Shown: positions 25,254 to 63,576, numbered from the stretch's first letter. The stretch: DNA of 64,000 bases from Candidatus Altimarinota bacterium (GCA_028713325.1 JAQTON010000003.1:1-64000), one strand, 5' to 3'. The notes: generated from the letters alone by a model not told the origin. Numbers and translations are program-made.

Positions 25254-26858
25254 CTAACATCCTTTGTTTCGGAAGTACTCGATTAAGTTTTTAATCTTTA
25301 CTATCTCTTGAATCCCGGTATCGCGATCCCGAATCGTGAGTTGCCCTTGATCATAGTTCTCACTGTCCACACAGATGGAGAACGGAACTCCGATTTCATC
25401 CATACGGTAGTACCGCTTCCCAATCGCTCCCGTCTCGTCGTACTCGCACATAAAGTGCGGAGAGAGAAGCTTGTATATCTCCATCGCCTCCGTCCCGAGT
25501 TTTTTCACGAGAGGAAGAACGGCAATCTTGATCGGAGCGATGGACGGCTTGAACTTCATAATGACTCGGGAACCCTCTTCTGTTTCCATTCGAGTATAGG
25601 CGTCCGAGAGGGCTGCGAGAGTGAGTCGGGAAAGTCCTATGGAAGGCTCTATAACGTATGGTATGTACTTTTCATTGGTAAATGGGTCGAAGTAACTCAG
25701 GTCCGCCTTGGAGAGAGTCATATGAGCCTTCAAATCGTAATCGGTACGATTCGCAAGCGTGGAGATTTCTCCCCATCCGAACGGGAAAAGGTACTCAAAG
25801 TCTCCGGCACGGCGAGAATAGTGAGGAAGTCCTTCTTTCGGAATCTCGACGAATCGCACTTTGTCGGCACTAAATCCGAGCACTTCCGTGAAGAATCTCT
25901 GTTCTTCCCGGAGCCACTCTTCGAAGAACGCCTCATCGGTTCCCGGTTTACAAAAGAATTCAATCTCAATCTGTTCGAATTCACGAGTACGGAAGATAAA
26001 GTTCTTCGGAGTGATTTCATTTCGGAAGGCTTTTCCACACTGTGCTACTCCGAATGGTACCTTCTTTCGGCTCGTTCGGGCAATATTCGCAAAGTTTACG
26101 AATATCCCCTGAGCGGTCTCAGGACGAAGGTATACAAGACTCGTAGAATCCTCTGTCACCCCCTGATGCGTTTGAAGCATGAGGTTGAATCGTCTAATTT
26201 CAGTCCAGTCACATTTTCCACAAGTTGGACATTTAATTTTTTCAAAAATTAGGAAATGTGATAAAAAAAGATTTATATCTTTATCTAATGCAATAAGTTG
26301 ACGTCCCCATAATCCGTAAGCTGAATTAAAATCTCATACTGCGTGAAATAGAGACTCCATTTGATTAGAATCTCATTGTGAAAGCTTATGAATAAAAGTT
26401 ACTTCTTCTATAGTTGGATCATTGTTTGTAATATATTTTTTTTGTTCAATCGCAGATAGGGATTCCCAGTGTTTGACCCATAACTTTGCACTGGCACGAA
26501 TCCAATTCTGCTTAATATTTATAACCTCTTCTTTATATATTTCTTCAAGAATTTTATCAGCACGTTCTCTATTATTACAAGCCCTACAGTCTACAAGAGG
26601 ATCAGAAAAACCTCCAACATGTCCGGAAGCCACCCAGACATTCGGGTTCATGAGAATCGCCGCATCGAGCAGAGTCATATCGGGACGCTTCTGCACGAAC
26701 TCCCGTATCCAGGCGTTCTTGATGTTTTCCTTGAGCATTGATCCGTACGGTCCATAATCCCAACTATTTGCGAGTCCTCCATATATTTCGGATCCTTGGT
26801 ATACAAATCCTCGAACTTTCGAGAGTTCCACGAGGTCTTTCATTTCGACGTTTGACAT
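25254..26858 (-). CDS. glyS: Glycyl-tRNA synthetase, class II alpha2 type (UGA read as Gly)
   Basis: This 534-residue enzyme charges tRNA-Gly. Two TGA codons (26373 and 26334) encode glycine. The class II motifs are clear: [21 protein letters not shown] near the N-terminus, the zinc-binding cysteines CRAC and [21 protein letters not shown] (motif 2 region), and the C-terminal anticodon-binding domain starting at [12 protein letters not shown]. In a UGA-glycine organism the same enzyme must also charge the extra tRNA-Gly(UCA). The ATG at 26858 is chosen because the upstream part of the open frame lies in the T-box leader. Confidence 0.95.
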
Positions 26859-27045
26859 ATATTTTAAAAGTAAACGAATAAAAAATCCCAAAACCTCTGT
26901 TGAAAGAGATTTCGGGACCAGTTTGATTTTTCGACCGGCGGTTCCACCCAAATTCCGTGATTGCATCACGACGCTTTTTATAGAGAAATGCGAGAGAAGA
27001 AGGTTTCCAACCCTTCCTGTAAAACTCCCTATTTTTCTATGTATG
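26859..27045 (-). promoter_or_regulatory. T-box leader controlling glyS
   Basis: On the minus strand the leader contains the T-box sequence GGGTGGAACCGC (26938-26949), and a terminator hairpin (26881-26917) that ends in a T run 22 bases before the glyS ATG. The UGGA of the T-box bulge fits pairing with the UCCA end of tRNA-Gly, whose discriminator base is U. A promoter with TATAAT (27051-27056) and TTGCAT (27073-27078) lies just upstream. Uncharged tRNA-Gly is expected to switch glyS on. I could not fix the specifier codon by eye. Confidence 0.8.
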
Positions 27046-27148
27046 TGGGTATTATAGAGAAGAGATGAGGAAATGCAAATTCTTTTGCATTCTTCCCGGT
27101 TCCTGCTATAATCTTTGCACTACATCCTCATTTTCCCGAAAAATGCCC

Positions 27149-27175
27149 TTGACAACGATAATGCCGACATATAAT
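27149..27175 (+). promoter_or_regulatory. Putative promoter upstream of the DGR locus
   Basis: TTGACA (27149-27154) and TATAAT (27170-27175), 15 bases apart, point toward the DGR target gene about 330 bases downstream. The repeats in between would form a long leader. Confidence 0.5.
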
Positions 27176-27179
27176 TTAT

Positions 27180-27224
27180 CAGCCGTCAGCCGTCAGCCGT
27201 CAGCCGTCAGCCGTCAGCCGTCAG
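27180..27224. repeat. Tandem 7-bp repeat (CAGCCGT)n
   Basis: Six uninterrupted copies of CAGCCGT plus a partial one. Such simple repeats can change in number by slippage. It lies immediately after the putative promoter. Confidence 0.9.
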
Positions 27225-27450
27225 AACCGTAGGGGCGAACCTCTGTGTTCGTCTTTCATTCCCGAAAATCCCAAGCACCGTTTTTTCCGTGTTTCGGGAT
27301 TTTTTTGTGTTTCGGTCGGGACCGTAACGAAACCGTAGGGGCGAACCCTTGTGTTCGCCATGTCCGTGAGACAAACCGTAGGGGCAATCCTCCGTGATTG
27401 CCATATCGCGAATCAGAATCATCAGGGCAGACACAGAGGTCTGCCCCTAC
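27225..27450. repeat. GTAGGGGC-type dispersed repeat cluster
   Basis: Three direct copies of the pattern ACCGTAGGGGC followed by GAAC or AATC and a palindromic GTGTTCG or GTGATTGCC end (starting near 27225, 27329 and 27375) plus one inverted copy (GTCTGCCCCTACGA, near 27438). It belongs to a palindromic repeat type seen in many bacterial genomes and separates glyS from the DGR locus. I see no gene in it. Confidence 0.75.
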
Positions 27451-27504
27451 GATCCGAATAATTTCATTTTAAAATATTTTTTATTTCTTTTATTCTTACA
27501 TTAT

Positions 27505-29688
27505 ATGAAAACATTAAAAAACACTTCTTCTGTCATTGCGAGCGAAGCGAAGCAATCCAGATCAAATATATCTTCTTTTTCACGAAAACTCTCTGGTTTC
27601 ACCCTCGTCGAGCTCATCGTGGTTATCACTATCCTCGTCATCCTCGGAACCATCGCTTTCACGAGCCTCACGGGATTCTCATGAAATGCCCGCGATTCCG
27701 ACCGGGTTACTACTCTTAAGAATATAGAGAGTGGACTCGATCTCTTCCAGATAAAATCTTGACAGTATCCGACTCCCGAGAACATCACAGGAACCGGAAC
27801 TGTCAACGGAAACATCCTTGCTTCCGTCTGAGAGATCGGAGACACTATTTCCCGCATCATCAAGATCAACAAGATTCCCACAGATCCCCTCTCCAAATCC
27901 AACTATGTCTACGGAACCAACACAAGCAAAACTCAATATCAAATCGCCACCACCCTCGAGAATGCCGTAGCACATAATTCTCCTTTTATTTCTCAAACCT
28001 ACGCAGCAAACTCTTCCCTCCAAGCCCGAGTCAATGGAAATTATTCCGGATATATCAAATTCAGTAGCGGTTCAGAAACTTGGATAGCCAACATCCCTTC
28101 CCTCATATTCAATAACACAGGAAGTACCAATCTCCTCTCCACAGGAACCTATTTCGTCGTGAACAAACAACAGAATCTTCCCTACAAGTTGGATGATAAA
28201 ACCGAGACACGAAACAAGAACGCAACGGAAATCATCCAAGCCATCGCCAACACCACAACCGCTACGCTTACGGGAGCAAGAATCGATAACATAACTACCA
28301 GTACCGGAGTATCCGCTTTCTTCACCTGAGCTCTCCTTGCAAGCTTCTGAGGAAACATCACCTTCATAGAAACCGCGGTTCTCGGGAAAACCGCCACTAT
28401 TACTCCTCCCGCACCGAATGACTGTACTTTCAATTCCAGTCCCGTTACGCACGCCACAGCGGTTACCGCCTACCTCGCATCCTCCGTATCATTCGGGAAT
28501 ACCTGTACGAGCGAACAGAGAACCTGTACGAACGGAACTCTCAGTGGAACCTACACCTTCGCAGCATGTACCGTAGCAGGAGCAACCGGTACTTTCACTC
28601 TCTCTCAAACATCCGTCACACAGTGAACCAATCCTACTATTTCCAATAACTGTAGTACCGCTCCAACCGGTTATACCAGTTCCGATACGGCAGTTGCCAC
28701 CATTGCCGGAACTACCATCACCACTCTCTCTGCAGGAACCACCGATATTACCCCAGTCTGAGGAGCTTGTGCCGACAATATTGCGAAGACTTTGACGGTG
28801 ATAGCACCGGTAATTAACGGAACCTGCGGAACCGCGAACAATCTCCTCACCAGTACTTCGCCGACTGCCACTCGTTGTTCAACATGAGATCCGACCATTG
28901 TCACCGATACCGGAACGGGATGGACATGGAGCTGTAACGGATCGAACGGAGGAACGACCGCAAGTTGCAATGCTCCCCAATCCTATCCGAACTGCAATAT
29001 CGCCAACATCAAACTCGCAAACAATCAGGTCTGGTCCGCTTGTAATGTCGGAGCCACCACTGCCTATGTCGGAGAATCAATCGCGAATTGCGCAGGATCC
29101 GCAAATGACTGCGATCTCGCTCTTCGGTCCACCCTCGGAGGGTACTATCAGTGGGGACGCAATAATAATGTCGCATCTCAGGGAACTCCGACCGCTACCC
29201 AAGCGATCGCCGGAACTCTCGCCGGAGGAGTCGGACATTCGAACTTCATCACGAACGCAACCTCTCCGTACGACTGGATAGCGACACAAAACGACAATCT
29301 CTGGGGAGGTGCTGGGACGACCAGCACTGCTGGAACCTTCGCTTCTCAGGGTTCGCCTGCCACGATGCAAGGACCGTGTCCTACCAGCTACCATGTGCCG
29401 ACTCAGTTCGAATGGTGCTCGGCAGCCCAATCCATCAACCCGGCACTTACCTGCACTTCCGCCTGGCAGAACGACACTTCGATTGCTACTACTCTCAAAC
29501 TCCCTCTTTCGGGCAGCCGCTATTACTCCCCTGCCGGCTACTTCAATCAGGGCGTGTACGGGTACTACTGGTCTTCGTCCCCGTCTGGCATCTATGGCTA
29601 CTATGTGACCATTAGCGGTACGCAGGTGTACCCGTTGGATATCAATTATCGGGCGTACGGGTTCTCTGTGCGTTGTCTCAAGAACTAG
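27505..29688 (+). CDS. DGR target: type IV prepilin-like surface protein with diversified C-terminus
   Basis: Reading eight TGA codons (27682, 27760, 27829, 28327, 28348, 28624, 28759, 28885) as glycine gives one 727-residue frame ending in TAG. Residues 31-50 are a class III prepilin signal (G31|FTLVELIVVITILVI, with Glu at mature position 5), followed by pilin-like sequence (IESGLDLFQIKSGQYPTPE). The middle is Thr/Ser-rich with Ig-like Big-type stretches and repeated Cys pairs. The last 190 residues resemble the FISUMP (Fib_succ_major) C-type-lectin-like domain (GGYYQWGRNN, CPTSYHVPTQFEWC, YYWSSSPSG, FSVRCLKN), whose end is the variable region. Prepilin peptidase processing would place it on a pilus or in the envelope with the variable surface outward. 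Codons 9-21 of the leader lie in a dispersed repeat. Confidence 0.93.
29507..29685 (+). repeat. DGR variable region (VR)
   Basis: The final 179 bases of the target gene align without gaps to the template at 30284-30462. All 15 differences fall on template adenines: 11 A-to-T, 2 A-to-G, 2 A-to-C. They change 14 codons, 13 of them template AAY (Asn), eight of which now read Tyr. The last 30 bases are identical, as expected of the initiation-of-homing end. The T of the TAG stop right after VR is a C at the same place past TR. Confidence 0.97.
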
Positions 29689-29786
29689 GAAAGTAAGCAA
29701 TGAGGCAGTTTCTCGAGATGAGGTTTCGTCATTCGACTCTTCGTTCTCTTTGTCTCTTTAAATATCTCTCAAAACTCACAAATACT

Positions 29787-30128
29787 ATGGCTACATATGA
29801 TAACTTGCCGGTTTACAAGGCAAGTTACGATTTATTGGTGGAGATTTTCCGGTTCGTCAAAACCTTCTCAAGAGAATATAAACACACACTCGGGGAGAGT
29901 ATCAAAAAAGAAATGATCATATTGATCAGTCATATTTATCGGGCGAATTCGGATTTCTCCAAGCGAAAAGAACACCTGTCGGGTGCTCGTGAGAGCCTCG
30001 AGCTTATCAGACTCTATCTCCGACTCACGAAGGATCTGAATCAAATCAATCTCAAAAGTTTCGTGTTTCTAAACACGATTATCGAATCGGTATCGAAACA
30101 GCTTTTCTCTTGGCAGAAGAGCATGTAA
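29787..30128 (+). CDS. avd: Accessory variability determinant (Avd-like four-helix protein)
   Basis: The 113-residue protein is all helical and matches the bAvd/23S rRNA-intervening-sequence four-helix-bundle family: DNLPVYKASYDLLVEIFRFV, then REYKHTLGESIKKEMIILIS, RKEHLSGARESLELIRLYLR, and a last helix ending SKQLFSWQ. Avd binds the DGR reverse transcriptase and is needed for mutagenic homing. Its place between the target gene and the template repeat is the classic DGR order. No in-frame TGA. The ATG at 29787 begins the conserved part; an upstream in-frame ATG at 29700 would add 29 unlikely residues. Confidence 0.92.
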   Translation: MATYDNLPVYKASYDLLVEIFRFVKTFSREYKHTLGESIKKEMIILISHIYRANSDFSKRKEHLSGARESLELIRLYLRLTKDLNQINLKSFVFLNTIIESVSKQLFSWQKSM

Positions 30129-30283
30129 ACGAATCATATCTTTCTCGAAAAACGGTCAGAGTCGGCACTTCCAAGGAAATGCCGAGAGAACCGCATCCTA
30201 GTTGATGGTACACTTCCGAAAGGGAGTAATAAAAGATACGTGCGTCCTTATTTTGGGCACACCTACAAATTTAGTTGCCATTT

Positions 30284-30462
30284 TTTCGGGCAACCGCAAT
30301 AACTCCACTGCCGGCTACAACAATCAGGGCGTGAACGGGAACTACTGGTCTTCGTCCCCGTCTGGCATCTATGGCTACAATGTGAACATTAGCGGTACGC
30401 AGGTGAACCCGTTGAATAACAATAATCGGGCGAACGGGTTCTCTGTGCGTTGTCTCAAGAAC
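30284..30462 (+). repeat. DGR template region (TR)
   Basis: A 179-base non-coding copy of VR, rich in AAY codons when read in the target frame (16 of them), which is the hallmark of DGR templates because adenine mutation of AAY cannot create a stop. It lies between avd and the reverse transcriptase. Similarity to VR ends abruptly at both edges. An open frame runs through it only because it copies coding sequence. Confidence 0.97.
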
Positions 30463-30544
30463 CAGGATTTGATTTCACCTCACCTAACTTCTCCTTAACA
30501 AGAGGAGGCTGGGTGGGGTTATATTGTTTAACACATGTTTTTTT

Positions 30545-31723
30545 ATGGAAATTCATGAACTTTTCGAAGCCTATTACGAGTGCCGTCGAAATAAGCGTGG
30601 CACCGCAAATGCGCTCGCATTTGAGCTTGACTACGAGTCGAGTCTTCTTGCTCTTTACACGGAAGTGCAGAATGGAACCTACCGTGTAGGGAAATCCATC
30701 GCTTTTATCGTGGATAAACCCGTCAAACGCGAGATATTCGCAGGCGATTTTCGCGACCGAGTCATTCATCATTACATTATTCGCAAGCTCAATCCCGTTT
30801 TCGAGAAGCTTTTCATTCATGACTCGTACAGCTGTCGAGTATGAAAAGGGACGCTTTTCGGAATACGGAGAATCGACCGATTCATACGACAGGCGACCGC
30901 TAACTACACGAAGGATGCGCATGTACTGAAGCTCGATATACAGGGCTTCTTCATGAATATCGACCGCACTATCCTTCTCTCCCAGATTCGAAACATCATC
31001 GACACGAAGTATTCGTCAGACGATGCCGAAGAGCTTTTCTGGCTCTGCACGAAGGTTGTGCAAAACGACCCGACGAAAAACTGTACGATTAAGGGCAGGA
31101 GAGAGGGTTGGGTCGGACTTCCGAGGTCTAAAAGCCTCTTTTTCTCGGCTCCTTGAGTCGGTCTTCCGATCGGCAATCTGACGAGCCAGATTTTCGCGAA
31201 CCTGTACCTTCATGAGCTCGATATATTCGTGAAAAAAGAGCTCAAGATTCGATACTACGGGAGGTATGTAGACGACTTCGTTCTCGTTCACGAGGATTCG
31301 GAATACCTCAAGGAATCCATCGTCTTGATCCGGACATTTTTGTCAGAGCACCTGAGGCTCGAACTCCACCCGAAAAAAATACATTTCCAGCATGCAAGCA
31401 AAGGCGTCGCTTTTCTCGGTGCGTACATCAAACCATGGAGGATCTATGTCGGAAAACGAATGAAGGGAAGTTTCTTCGAGACGATCGAGGAGATAAACCG
31501 TATGATTGTTGGAGATACGGGTATTTTACAGGACAGAAAAACACAAAAACTCTTTCTCTCCAATATCAACTCGTACCTTGGACTTATGCGACACTACGAC
31601 AGCTTTACTATTCGCAAAAAACTCCTCTTTTCTCTCCATGCCTCTTTCTGGAACCATTTCTATATCTCCGAGCAGTATCGGCTGGTCGTTGCGAAGACGA
31701 GAGAATGTTTCCGGGATACATAG
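30545..31723 (+). CDS. DGR reverse transcriptase (two UGA-Gly codons)
   Basis: With TGA at 30842 and 31154 read as glycine the frame is 392 residues. Reverse transcriptase blocks are in order: KLDIQGFFMNID with the first catalytic aspartate (about residue 131), GLPIGNLTSQIFANLYL (about 206-222) carrying the DGR-specific IGxxxSQ motif, and YVDD (241-244) with the other two catalytic aspartates. It would copy TR RNA with adenine-specific errors into cDNA that replaces VR. The glycine before VGLPIGN is a TGA codon, so the enzyme only works in a code-25 host. The ATG at 30545 is preferred over 30524 by homology. Confidence 0.96.
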
Positions 31724-31758
31724 AAGCGGGAATAACAAGGAAAGAGAAAAATATATTT

Positions 31759-32778
31759 TTACAACCCACACCCTTCCCCCTCCCACACTTCCACCATCGC
31801 TTCTTTCCCACGTTCGAGTTTCATATTTAAAAGCCCCGTATGCTCGCTTCGGATACACGAGAGCACATTATCTATATCTTCGAGACTCTCGACGGATACG
31901 AGCGATTTTCGGTATTCTTTGACTCCCGCAAATCCGTGAAGGTACTGGACGAGGTGTTTACGGCTCTCGAGAATCCCTTTTCGGCCTTTGTTTTCCACGA
32001 GAAGCTGTCCGTGTTCGTGCATGATGGCGAGGATTTCCCCAAGAGTGGGAATATATCCGCCCGGGAGAAAACACCAAGGATTGCCGAAGCTACTTCTCCC
32101 AATCATAAATCCGTCGAGATTTGCGAGTTTTTTTATTCCATCGTCATAATCGAGCACATCCCCGTTCCCGATGACCGGAATGGAGAGGTGTTTTTTGAGC
32201 TCATAGATTCCCGTCCAGTCAGCTGTTCCATCGAATGCCTGCTGGTAGGTTCGCCCGTGCACGGAGAGGAGGTTCGCCCCGGCATTCTGGAGTCAGAGTG
32301 CGAATGGGATGAGGTGTTCTTCCCAGTTGTTCCACCCGAGACGGGTTTTGACCGAGATGGGAATACTCACCGCTTTGCTCATCTCTTCGATGATCCGAAA
32401 GGCGGTGTCGGTATTAATCATGAGACTCGATCCATGTCCGCTCTTGACGACTTTTTTTGCGGGGCATCCCATATTGACATCCACTCCGGCAGCTCCCGCT
32501 TGTTCGATCAAAATAGCCGCTTTACGAAACATCTCCGGGTCTTTTCCAAATATCTGGATAATGAGCGGCTTTTCGCTTGCATCGTGCTTGAAAGCAGATT
32601 GTTGGAGTTGTTTCGAGTGGACAAGTCCGTCCGCACTGTAGAACTCGGAAAAGCATACGGTACGCGGAGCTATTTTTTTTACTATCTGCCGATAGGGACT
32701 GTCGGTGTATCCGTCCATGGGTGCAAGAGCAGAGATGGGGCCTTGTTTTGCAAGATCGGACCAGAAGGATTTTGACAT
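31759..32778 (-). CDS. dus: tRNA-dihydrouridine synthase (UGA read as Gly)
   Basis: The 339-residue flavoenzyme reduces uridines in the tRNA D-loop. Family features are APMDGYTDSPYRQI (residues 18-31), EFYSADGLV, DVNMGCPAKKVVKSGHGSSL with the catalytic cysteine (about residue 100), KTRLGW, SVHGRTYQQAF and GNGDV, then MIGRSSFGNPW. One TGA (32293) is glycine in PFALGLQNAGAN. It converges on the DGR reverse transcriptase with only 35 bases between stops, which marks the right edge of the DGR locus. Confidence 0.94.
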
Positions 32779-32933
32779 AGGAGAAGGGTTCGGGAACTTA
32801 GAATTTAAAATGAGAGACTCTTTTCGTCAAGTGAAAATAAATGGAAATATTTGGAGAATCCTTCATAGGTGTGGTAGTATATGGATATCGGGGAAAAACT
32901 CAACCCTTCTTATCAAATAAATACAGCTATCTC

Positions 32934-61396: not shown

Positions 61397-61518
61397 AGAA
61401 CTTTCGCAAAAACGAAGTAATTCGAGTGCAAATCGAGACCCGGAGCGAACCGTACGAATGTACGGAAAGTGAGGAAGCGGAGATTTAAACTTGAAGAACA
61501 AGTTTTTCCGAGAGTTCT
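61397..61518. repeat. Dispersed structured repeat, copy D
   Basis: AGAACTTTCGCAAAAAC (61397-61413) pairs with GTTTTTCCGAGAGTTCT (61502-61518) with two mismatches; the core holds GAACCGTACGAATGTACGG in the reverse sense to copies A and B. It overlaps the stop codon of the pilus-assembly gene on the minus strand. Confidence 0.78.
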
Positions 61519-62410
61519 ATTGGAAGACGGTGAAGTCAAGGGCTTCATTCGTTGTCATCTGTTGGATGAATCGGGTGATGTTTTTTCGGAATCCTCCCGC
61601 ATACCCCTGTGCCTCGATGACGGCAGTCTGAAGGGGGACTGGTACGTTGAAGTGAGCTTGGTACTCGAGATAGGGAGCTTTTTCACCGCTTGTGAGAACA
61701 AGTGGATTGATGAGCGAAAATTTGATGGTGCACTTTTGAGTACCTTTACAGTAGTTAATGTTATTGTAAAATCCATAAAAAGTAGTGGAACTTCCGGAAA
61801 GTGTTTTCCCAAATCTGTTGAGAGATCCTGGATGGAAGAGTATTTTTGTCGCTAGATTGTTTATTTGATCCGCATTAATCTGACTCCCGCTTGCTTGGAG
61901 GGTGTCTCCACTTGCCGTAAGATTCCAATTAATAATGGGCATTGCTATTCACCCGGTAAGAGTCTGATCCCATGCATTATTTCCATCAAGATCAGGGACT
62001 CGAAATCTAAGAAAAGTATAGTTAGTAGCATTCCATTCAATATTGGTTGGTAGTACGAGTTGGATTGGTTTTCCCGGAGCAAGAACCGCCCAATTAGGGT
62101 CATATTCGCTATTCCCTTGCCCGGGTTGCGGAAGGGTGAGTCCATTGGCAGTTATTTGATAGGTGAATCCGGATCCATTTATGAGAGCTCCGCTTGATGT
62201 TTCTATACTCGGATCATCTCCTGACATCGAGAGAAGAGCTTCGTCCAGAGCGGTGTTTGCTCGGTAATAGGAGATATTTCCATTCTCCACCCCTTTGATA
62301 TCCCGAGAAAACGGGAGAATCTTTTCAAGGAGATAGATGGCAATGACGATGATAATCATCGTCACAAATATCCCGATAATGAGAGCGGATCATGATTGAT
62401 TCTTTTTCAT
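61517..62410 (-). CDS. PilX-like minor pilin/pseudopilin (two UGA-Gly codons)
   Basis: The 297-residue protein begins MKKNQSGSALIIGIFVTMII, where the glycine at position 7 is a TGA codon. A short basic leader, a glycine and a long hydrophobic helix resemble PilX-type minor pilins, which lack the usual Glu5. The remainder is a soluble domain rich in Asn, Thr and Gly with few charged residues, as in pilus tip components. A second TGA (61949) is also glycine. It starts 24 bases after the pseudopilin upstream, so the two form an operon. Confidence 0.8.
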
Positions 62411-62434
62411 GGTACTGGTATAAAATAATAACAT

Positions 62435-63550
62435 TTATCTCGATAGATTCACCGTTGTTGTGATGGTCATATCACTCGCGGGCCCCTTGATTTTTTTGCG
62501 TTTTTCCCATGCAAGACCCAAAGTAAGGCGTATTCGGATGTAAGAATTCAGGATGATCGAATCACTCGATTCCTTCCAGGCATAACGGAAATCCTTTTCC
62601 GGATACAGATAAAAATCCACATTTTTTACATGTATCCACTCGGGAAATACATTTACCCACTCGGCATCCTCCCCCGCAGGAAGGTTGTTCGTTCCGGTAC
62701 AATTATAGTCTGGATGACACTCCCAGGTGTCTATAATACCATCATATCTTCCGGTGGAAGTAATCGATGTGTTTCCGGTGTGGCTGAGTCCAAGATCCTT
62801 TCAGACAAGTTTCAGTATCTGGATATTTCCGAGACAACCAGTTCCCGTTCCGGTAGCATCACAGGTCGCACCGGACGGTCTATTCTCATCGAGTTTAAAG
62901 ACCCAGCGAAAATAGGTACGTTCGGATTTCAATCATTTTTTTATCAAATAGAGCTCTTTTGTGCTCACTCCACCGGTAAAGACGCTCGGACCCATACCGA
63001 GATCTTCATCGTCATCATCTCATCGAACGTTGTCATTATTGTCCTCGTCTCAGAGGTCATTATTTGCATTGGAATTGTAATCGATGAATTGCTGACGATA
63101 TTGCCCGTATCTTTGAGCGGCTCCCGAAGCGTTCATGCAACCTCCGGTTCCCATCGATATTCCCATTCCACTCACACAGGAGTAAAGTCCGTCCCCATAA
63201 TTTGAGAGAGAACCACCGCTTCCATAGTTTCCAAAACCGGAAAACAGAGCGTAGTGTCCAGAAGAAGTGTTCGTTCCGACCACTCGTCTATTCCAATACT
63301 CCTCGTAATCGATATCCCCCCCGGTTTTTATAAGATCGACGAATTTTTCCGTGGCACTGTAGAGTTCGTTATTGAGATCAAGACGACTGGATACCATAGT
63401 TCTCAGTATCCCGATATTGCTCATCGAATCGAATGCCATTATGATGATAATAGCAAAGATGGTAATCGAGACAAGCATCTCTATGAGAGTAAATCATTTC
63501 ACCTGAGATCGGTCTCAACTCGAGATCGGTCCCAGTCTATTAAATTTCAT
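62435..63550 (-). CDS. PilW-like type IV prepilin with UGA-encoded cleavage-site glycine
   Basis: Six TGA codons as glycine join fragments into 371 residues. The class III signal KG|FTLIEMLVSITIFAIIIIMAF starts near residue 18; the glycine before the cleavage site (codon 19) is itself a TGA codon, so correct export depends on the code. The Glu at mature position 5 is present. The rest is a Tyr/Gly/Asn-rich extracellular domain (GFGNYGSGGSLSNYGDG) with Cys pairs. It would be cut by prepilin peptidase and added to a pilus or pseudopilus together with the PilX-like protein downstream. Confidence 0.87.
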
Positions 63551-63576
63551 ATTTTCCAAAAACTAAAAACTAAAAA

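Follow-up and report, generated by a model that had tools for sequence, protein, structure and literature searches.

The 64,000-nucleotide stretch of DNA analysed here (the window; Candidatus Altimarinota bacterium, GCA_028713325.1 JAQTON010000003.1:1-64000) encodes a complete diversity-generating retroelement (DGR) at positions 27505-31723, + strand. Very probably, this chromosomal DGR of a Gracilibacterium that reads UGA as glycine diversifies the FISUMP C-terminus of a surface protein with a prepilin leader, in the manner proposed below. The kind of DGR is already known; the design of the target is a new variation on it. The parts stand in the canonical order target, VR, avd, template repeat (TR) and reverse transcriptase (RT):

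27505..29688, + strand: DGR target gene, 727 aa under code 25, with 8 UGA read as Gly (from the ORF and the VR position)
27583..27660, + strand: type IV prepilin signal SRKLSG/FTLVELIVVITILVILGTIAF, residues 27-52, predicted cleavage G31/F32, Glu at +5 (PF07963 and TIGR02532 over cut-off)
29020..29682, + strand: Fib_succ_major (FISUMP) domain, C-terminal, residues 506-726 (PF09603 over cut-off)
29507..29690, + strand: VR, over the 3' end of the target gene (repeat alignment)
29724..29759, + strand: tandem ~8-nt T-rich repeats TTTCGTCATTCGACTCTTCGTTCTCTTTGTCTCTTT, a candidate target-recognition element (8-nt autocorrelation after the VR)
29787..30128, + strand: avd, accessory protein, 113 aa, within a longer ORF from 29700 (PF22296, phrog_3206, NF033474)
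30150..30285, + strand: conserved structured RNA domain, directly 5' of the TR (covariation, covariance model)
30284..30467, + strand: TR (repeat alignment)
30545..31723, + strand: DGR RT, 392 aa, 2 UGA, motifs GLPIGNLTSQ and YVDD (phrog_1423, motif alignment, tree)

VR and TR form a gap-free direct repeat of 184 nt at an offset of 777. Within a 179-nt core (29507-29685) all 15 mismatches lie at adenines of the TR (11 A>T, 2 A>G and 2 A>C); the chance of this outcome for randomly placed mismatches is ~3e-10. A 16th mismatch, at 29686, is not at an adenine: the TR has C and the VR has T, such that CAG of the TR corresponds to the stop codon TAG of the target. It lies at the 3' edge of the repeat, the place of the initiation-of-homing site in known DGRs. 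The original prediction had given the same gene order, with coordinates and repeats that agree with ours, and a gap-free VR/TR pair of 179 bp with 15 of 15 differences at adenines; the similarity in fact extends 5 nt further and includes the one non-A mismatch. The TR contains no adenines at third codon positions. It has 16 AAY codons, 13 of which are altered in the VR (8 to Tyr), and a stop can be reached by mutation from a single codon, an AAG in the unmutated 3' end. A lack of third-position adenines, many AAY codons and near protection from stops are typical of DGR templates. A genome-wide search of the 1.05-Mb genome identified no second TR, VR or RT.

The RT matches phrog_1423 (3e-96) and includes the GxxxSQ motif. 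Among solved structures, the closest is chain 8ub7 (E 1.9e-35), the RT of the BPP-1 DGR. In a tree for which non-CPR RTs were sampled by similarity to the query, the protein falls into a 21-row clade (97/85) with RTs of Bacteroidota and Bacteroides phages, apart from most of the CPR RTs sampled. The accessory protein matches bAvd (PF22296, 1e-13, over cut-off) and phrog_3206 (8e-20), as well as NF033474, the last at a score under its curated cut-off. A start at 29787 rather than 29700 is most likely, since in the longer ORF the Avd profiles match only from about residue 36 onward. With adenine-specific TR/VR changes, an RT of the DGR class and an Avd, the DGR is complete, as had been predicted.

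The target has a class III signal (G/F..E followed by a hydrophobic helix), as recognized by TIGR02532 and by N_methyl PF07963 (E 9e-6, over the Pfam cut-off). The leader ahead of the cleavage site is long (31 aa). The first ~150 residues resemble GspG and type IV pilins: a GspG-like match, below the cut-off of the model, reaches residue 148, and phmmer returned matches to geopilin and GspG chains. At the other end, PF09603 is matched at E 6.1e-9 (36.8 bits versus a cut-off of 33.9), and TIGR02145 at 28.6 bits, under its cut-off of 41.65. The VR sits inside this C-terminal FISUMP domain. Thus, the HMM search proposed along with the original prediction of a prepilin signal and a FISUMP C-terminus found both N_methyl and Fib_succ_major in the 727-residue protein, each curated profile over cut-off. 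By family, the FISUMP domain is likely of the C-type-lectin fold. Structure models of the domain are weak (mean pLDDT 49 and 56); there is no Foldseek match below 0.08, and the non-significant matches include C-type-lectin-fold proteins such as Mtd and TaqVP. A comparison of the domain profile with solved lectins gave no sequence match. A length of 727 aa is much for a pilus subunit; the protein may be anchored in the membrane or be a minor or tip subunit.

The DGR layout and the adenine bias recur in relatives. A prepilin signal at the start and FISUMP at the end occur in all seven targets of the order with an intact N-terminus (this DGR, L032, L033, L034, L035, L065 and L076; L033 and L034 derive from a single 2.4-Mb bin with 6% contamination). 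Pfam identified both domains in L032, L034, L035, L065 and L076; in L034 and L065 the FISUMP match stays under the cut-off. The prepilin signal is absent from the targets recovered from class family f13 and from other genomes of the CPR phylum. Thus, the combination is a trait of the lineage, being found in all seven targets of the order and not in the other targets recovered from the phylum. The pilin-like N-terminal part is also kept among the targets. The pilin-anchored target in a UGA-glycine host had been singled out as unusual, which applies only in part: such targets are the rule for DGRs of this order, and the genome uses prepilin leaders widely. A class relative (L075:4831-9501) encodes a surface-like protein of >1500 aa with two tandem FISUMP domains and, on the same stretch, a DGR RT; no TR/VR pair was detected on that stretch.

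An orthologous DGR, with an RT 84% identical, is present in 'Candidatus Gracilibacteria bacterium CG2_30_37_12' (genome G020, locus L017). The TRs of the two species differ at 17 sites, and each VR has the base of its own TR at 15 of these; the remaining two are an adenine-mutated site and a stop-codon site. Among the sites shared by the two TRs, 19 of 47 adenines but only 1 of 120 non-adenine positions differ between the VRs (Fisher p 2e-11). Each VR copies the TR of its own species, and therefore retrohoming has run since the species split. This is strong, if indirect, sequence evidence that the VR was rewritten from the TR after the species separated, which is recent on an evolutionary scale. 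The original prediction of an actively varied binding surface thus holds on the evolutionary time scale, from the concerted evolution of TR and VR in two species; in the present population, the DGR may still be active. Genome G020 has further RT loci (L031, L036 and L037), of which L036 is very divergent and has its own adenine-biased repeat pair.

The genome (1.05 Mb, 5 contigs, 94.9% complete) is that of a Gracilibacterium in which UGA encodes Gly, an ultra-small organism with a probably symbiotic or host-dependent lifestyle. It encodes 24 N_methyl proteins over cut-off, several of them long. One prepilin peptidase and eight matches to T2SSE-type (PilB/PilT-type) ATPases were identified, thus machinery for processing and assembly exists. 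Also in the window (61517-63559, - strand) are two genes that look like minor-pilin genes of the type IV class; an N_methyl signal is present in one of them. The DGR is flanked by glyS and dus, within a spot (25254-32916) between lysM and dus. In the congener G021, only 52 bp separate dus from lysM, and both glyS and the DGR are missing; G024 has dus, glyS and lysM in this order, again with no DGR (glyS is 52% identical and dus ~90%); in G020 the DGR adjoins dus. From these arrangements, we conclude that the DGR occupies a variable spot in an otherwise conserved gene order. Its distribution in the family is patchy (7 of 27 genomes). An origin of the locus from a phage or prophage was considered and set aside, given flanking glyS and dus and phage RTs at most 41.5% identical.

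An alignment of the sequences 5' of the TR from 11 DGRs (families of Gracilibacteria and one of the Bacteroidia) yielded an RNA of ~135 nt with a 34-pair consensus, 31 pairs of which show compensatory double changes. The covariation score is 0.80, versus 0.28 for shuffles and ~0.15 for slid controls, and 91% versus 65% of the cells are paired. The covariance model gives 115 bits for this DGR, which was a member of the training set. Because the structure was derived from the alignment itself, weight is carried by the held-out matches (L070, L076, L021, L064, L072, L018, L033, L023 and L075; 34-86 bits). The held-out matches also include viral ones (L143, L139 and L166; 36-44 bits). The RNA lies just upstream of the TR wherever a TR was located. 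A search of Rfam 15 over 27000-32500 returned no match up to E 1. In published work on BPP-1, RNA on both sides of the TR is reportedly needed. Terminator-like hairpins occur directly 3' of the TR in 17 of 44 DGRs (L018, L032, L065, L066, L069, L070, L076, L110 and L121-L125 among the loci), compared with 7 after the VR, which suggests that the TR RNA is a discrete transcript in many DGRs. No intrinsic terminator was found after the TR of this DGR.

Downstream of 43 distinct VRs, autocorrelation at lag 8 has z 8.5, versus 0.8 after the TR. For 62 viral VRs, obtained in a separate search, the values are 11.1 (with a second peak at lag 16) and -2.3. The repeats were first spotted by eye. A fixed motif of [CT]T[TC]G pairs had been defined from the first 45 VRs. 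It did not hold in the held-out viral set, whose units have A, not G, as their last base. Only then was the autocorrelation test designed, so its viral result alone is something of an independent test. No hairpin of the BPP-1 type is evident after the VR here; the predicted fold of 29660-29780 is no more stable than that of shuffled sequences (z +0.66). A GRNA-loop hairpin follows the VR in the system described by Guo et al. (2011; PMC3240598), and the BPP-1-type site is GC-rich and located 4-34 bp after the VR. Some viral loci have both a hairpin and the ~8-nt repeats. Base pairing between the repeats and the conserved RNA was dropped as an idea, given a short by-eye match here and none in L035.

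Based on these features, we propose the following mode of working. The structured 5' domain (30150-30285) and the TR would form one RNA, bound by RT and Avd. The RT would copy the TR with errors at adenines, and the cDNA would replace the VR (retrohoming), with the DNA just 3' of the VR, here the ~8-nt T-rich repeats, marking the target. The altered AAY codons, 8 of them to Tyr, would change ~14 residues of a lectin-type binding face. The prepilin peptidase would mature the target leader, and the protein would either enter a type IV pilus or pseudopilus or remain in the membrane. Its variable face would point outward, where it may bind partner cells or evade phage. Pilus incorporation, the ligand and the roles of the RNA and the repeats are predictions from sequence. 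More tentatively, and with some doubt, we suggest that the 5' RNA, which occurs from Gracilibacteria to Bacteroidota and some phages, organizes RT and Avd, perhaps with a part in priming, and that the ~8-nt repeats, seen after the VR but not after the TR in DGRs of CPR, Bacteroidota and phages, distinguish the target from the template. In that case, the majority of DGRs within this RT range would have a target signal in common that is distinct from the BPP-1 hairpin or supplements it. The repeats at the VR and the RNA before the TR are simple candidates for target/template discrimination and for the start of the cDNA in a DGR.

It is possible, although less likely, that the same DGR acts on a membrane adhesin with no pilus involved, the prepilin leader serving only as an anchor through a pseudopilin-like helix in the membrane. 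Such an arrangement fits the size of the protein, its single hydrophobic helix and its long linkers, and the large number of prepilin-leader ORFs in the genome, including several long ones, points to a general surface anchor. However, the pilin-like N-terminal part conserved among the targets is beyond the needs of a bare anchor, and assembly ATPases are encoded.

Decay of the DGR into a non-working relic is improbable. Only a single VR allele was seen, the family distribution is patchy and a DGR-free congener has lysM and dus 52 bp apart, as might be expected of such a remnant, but all ORFs and the RT motifs are intact, the VR core has no non-A mismatch and the VR tracks the TR in two species. 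An ordinary duplication of the gene end, with later divergence or gene conversion and no retroelement, could leave two similar repeats 777 bp apart. It is scarcely credible, however, given substitutions confined to the adenines of one copy, the adjoining RT and Avd, the conserved RNA before the TR and the recurrence of the pattern in relatives.

The BPP-1 DGR (mtd-avd-TR-brt) shares with this one the order of parts, adenine-specific changes in the VR, the RT and Avd families and a VR at the 3' end of the target. Its target is a phage tail fibre, whereas the target here is cellular, prepilin-anchored and encoded by a host with UGA read as Gly. No GRNA hairpin is evident after the VR here, but there are tandem ~8-nt repeats, and the strongly structured RNA of this DGR lies 5' of the TR. 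The Fib_succ_major DGRs of gut Bacteroidales and Bacteroides phages share the RT clade, FISUMP at the VR and, in some cases, display on a pilus or fimbria (PMC4159848, PMC8143477). Their anchor is a lipoprotein or type V (Mfa/FimA) pilin, in contrast to the type IV prepilin leader identified here; DGRs of Bacteroides type V pilin tips are cited in PMC12632263. The DGR of Flavobacterium sp. CYK-55 (L018) has an RT 57% identical, a FISUMP target with 30 of 30 changes at adenines and the conserved RNA (49.8 bits), but its target is a 227-aa lipoprotein-like protein that lacks a prepilin signal. The clade 2 DGRs of CPR (Patescibacteria) share host group and adenine bias (Roux et al., 2021; PMC8144416). 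Their targets typically lack recognizable membrane or other domains, whereas this target has both, and the RT does not group with most CPR RTs of our sample.

Fib_succ_major targets of DGRs were thus already known (PMC4159848, PMC8143477), and pilin-like DGR targets have been noted earlier (PMC6642488, citing earlier work; PMC6199706). In the literature searched, no paper was found that names both 'diversity-generating retroelement' and 'prepilin'. Neither the ~8-nt repeats nor the 5' RNA is described in the accessible literature, key subscription papers excepted. Roux et al. (2021; PMC8144416) left open whether the DGR targets of CPR are surface proteins; by contrast, targets of this order clearly bear a surface signal. 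The DGR provides a concrete example, across the order, of a way in which ultra-small, probably host-dependent bacteria could diversify a binding protein on display through the type IV pilus pathway.

Also encoded in the genome (L040:2789-3745, C1:486788 region, - strand) is a 319-aa protein that lacks a prepilin signal, has a C-terminus like the VR domain and matches PF09603 weakly. The gene lies near an ftsH-like gene. It was rejected as a second DGR target, as the genome contains no matching TR or RT; lacking a TR, it is regarded as an orphan (or relic) target. Upstream of the target gene, at 27179-27227, a tandem 7-nt repeat (TCAGCCG) was found together with copies of a GTAGGGGC element. 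Other targets of the family also have short tandem arrays upstream, but different ones. Within the target, a short repeat at 27534-27557, CATTGCGAGCGAAGCGAAGCAATC, codes for the leader sequence VIASEAKQSRSN ahead of the prepilin cleavage site; the repeat has one further genomic copy with 2 mismatches. It appears that a small repeat element became coding in the leader of the target.
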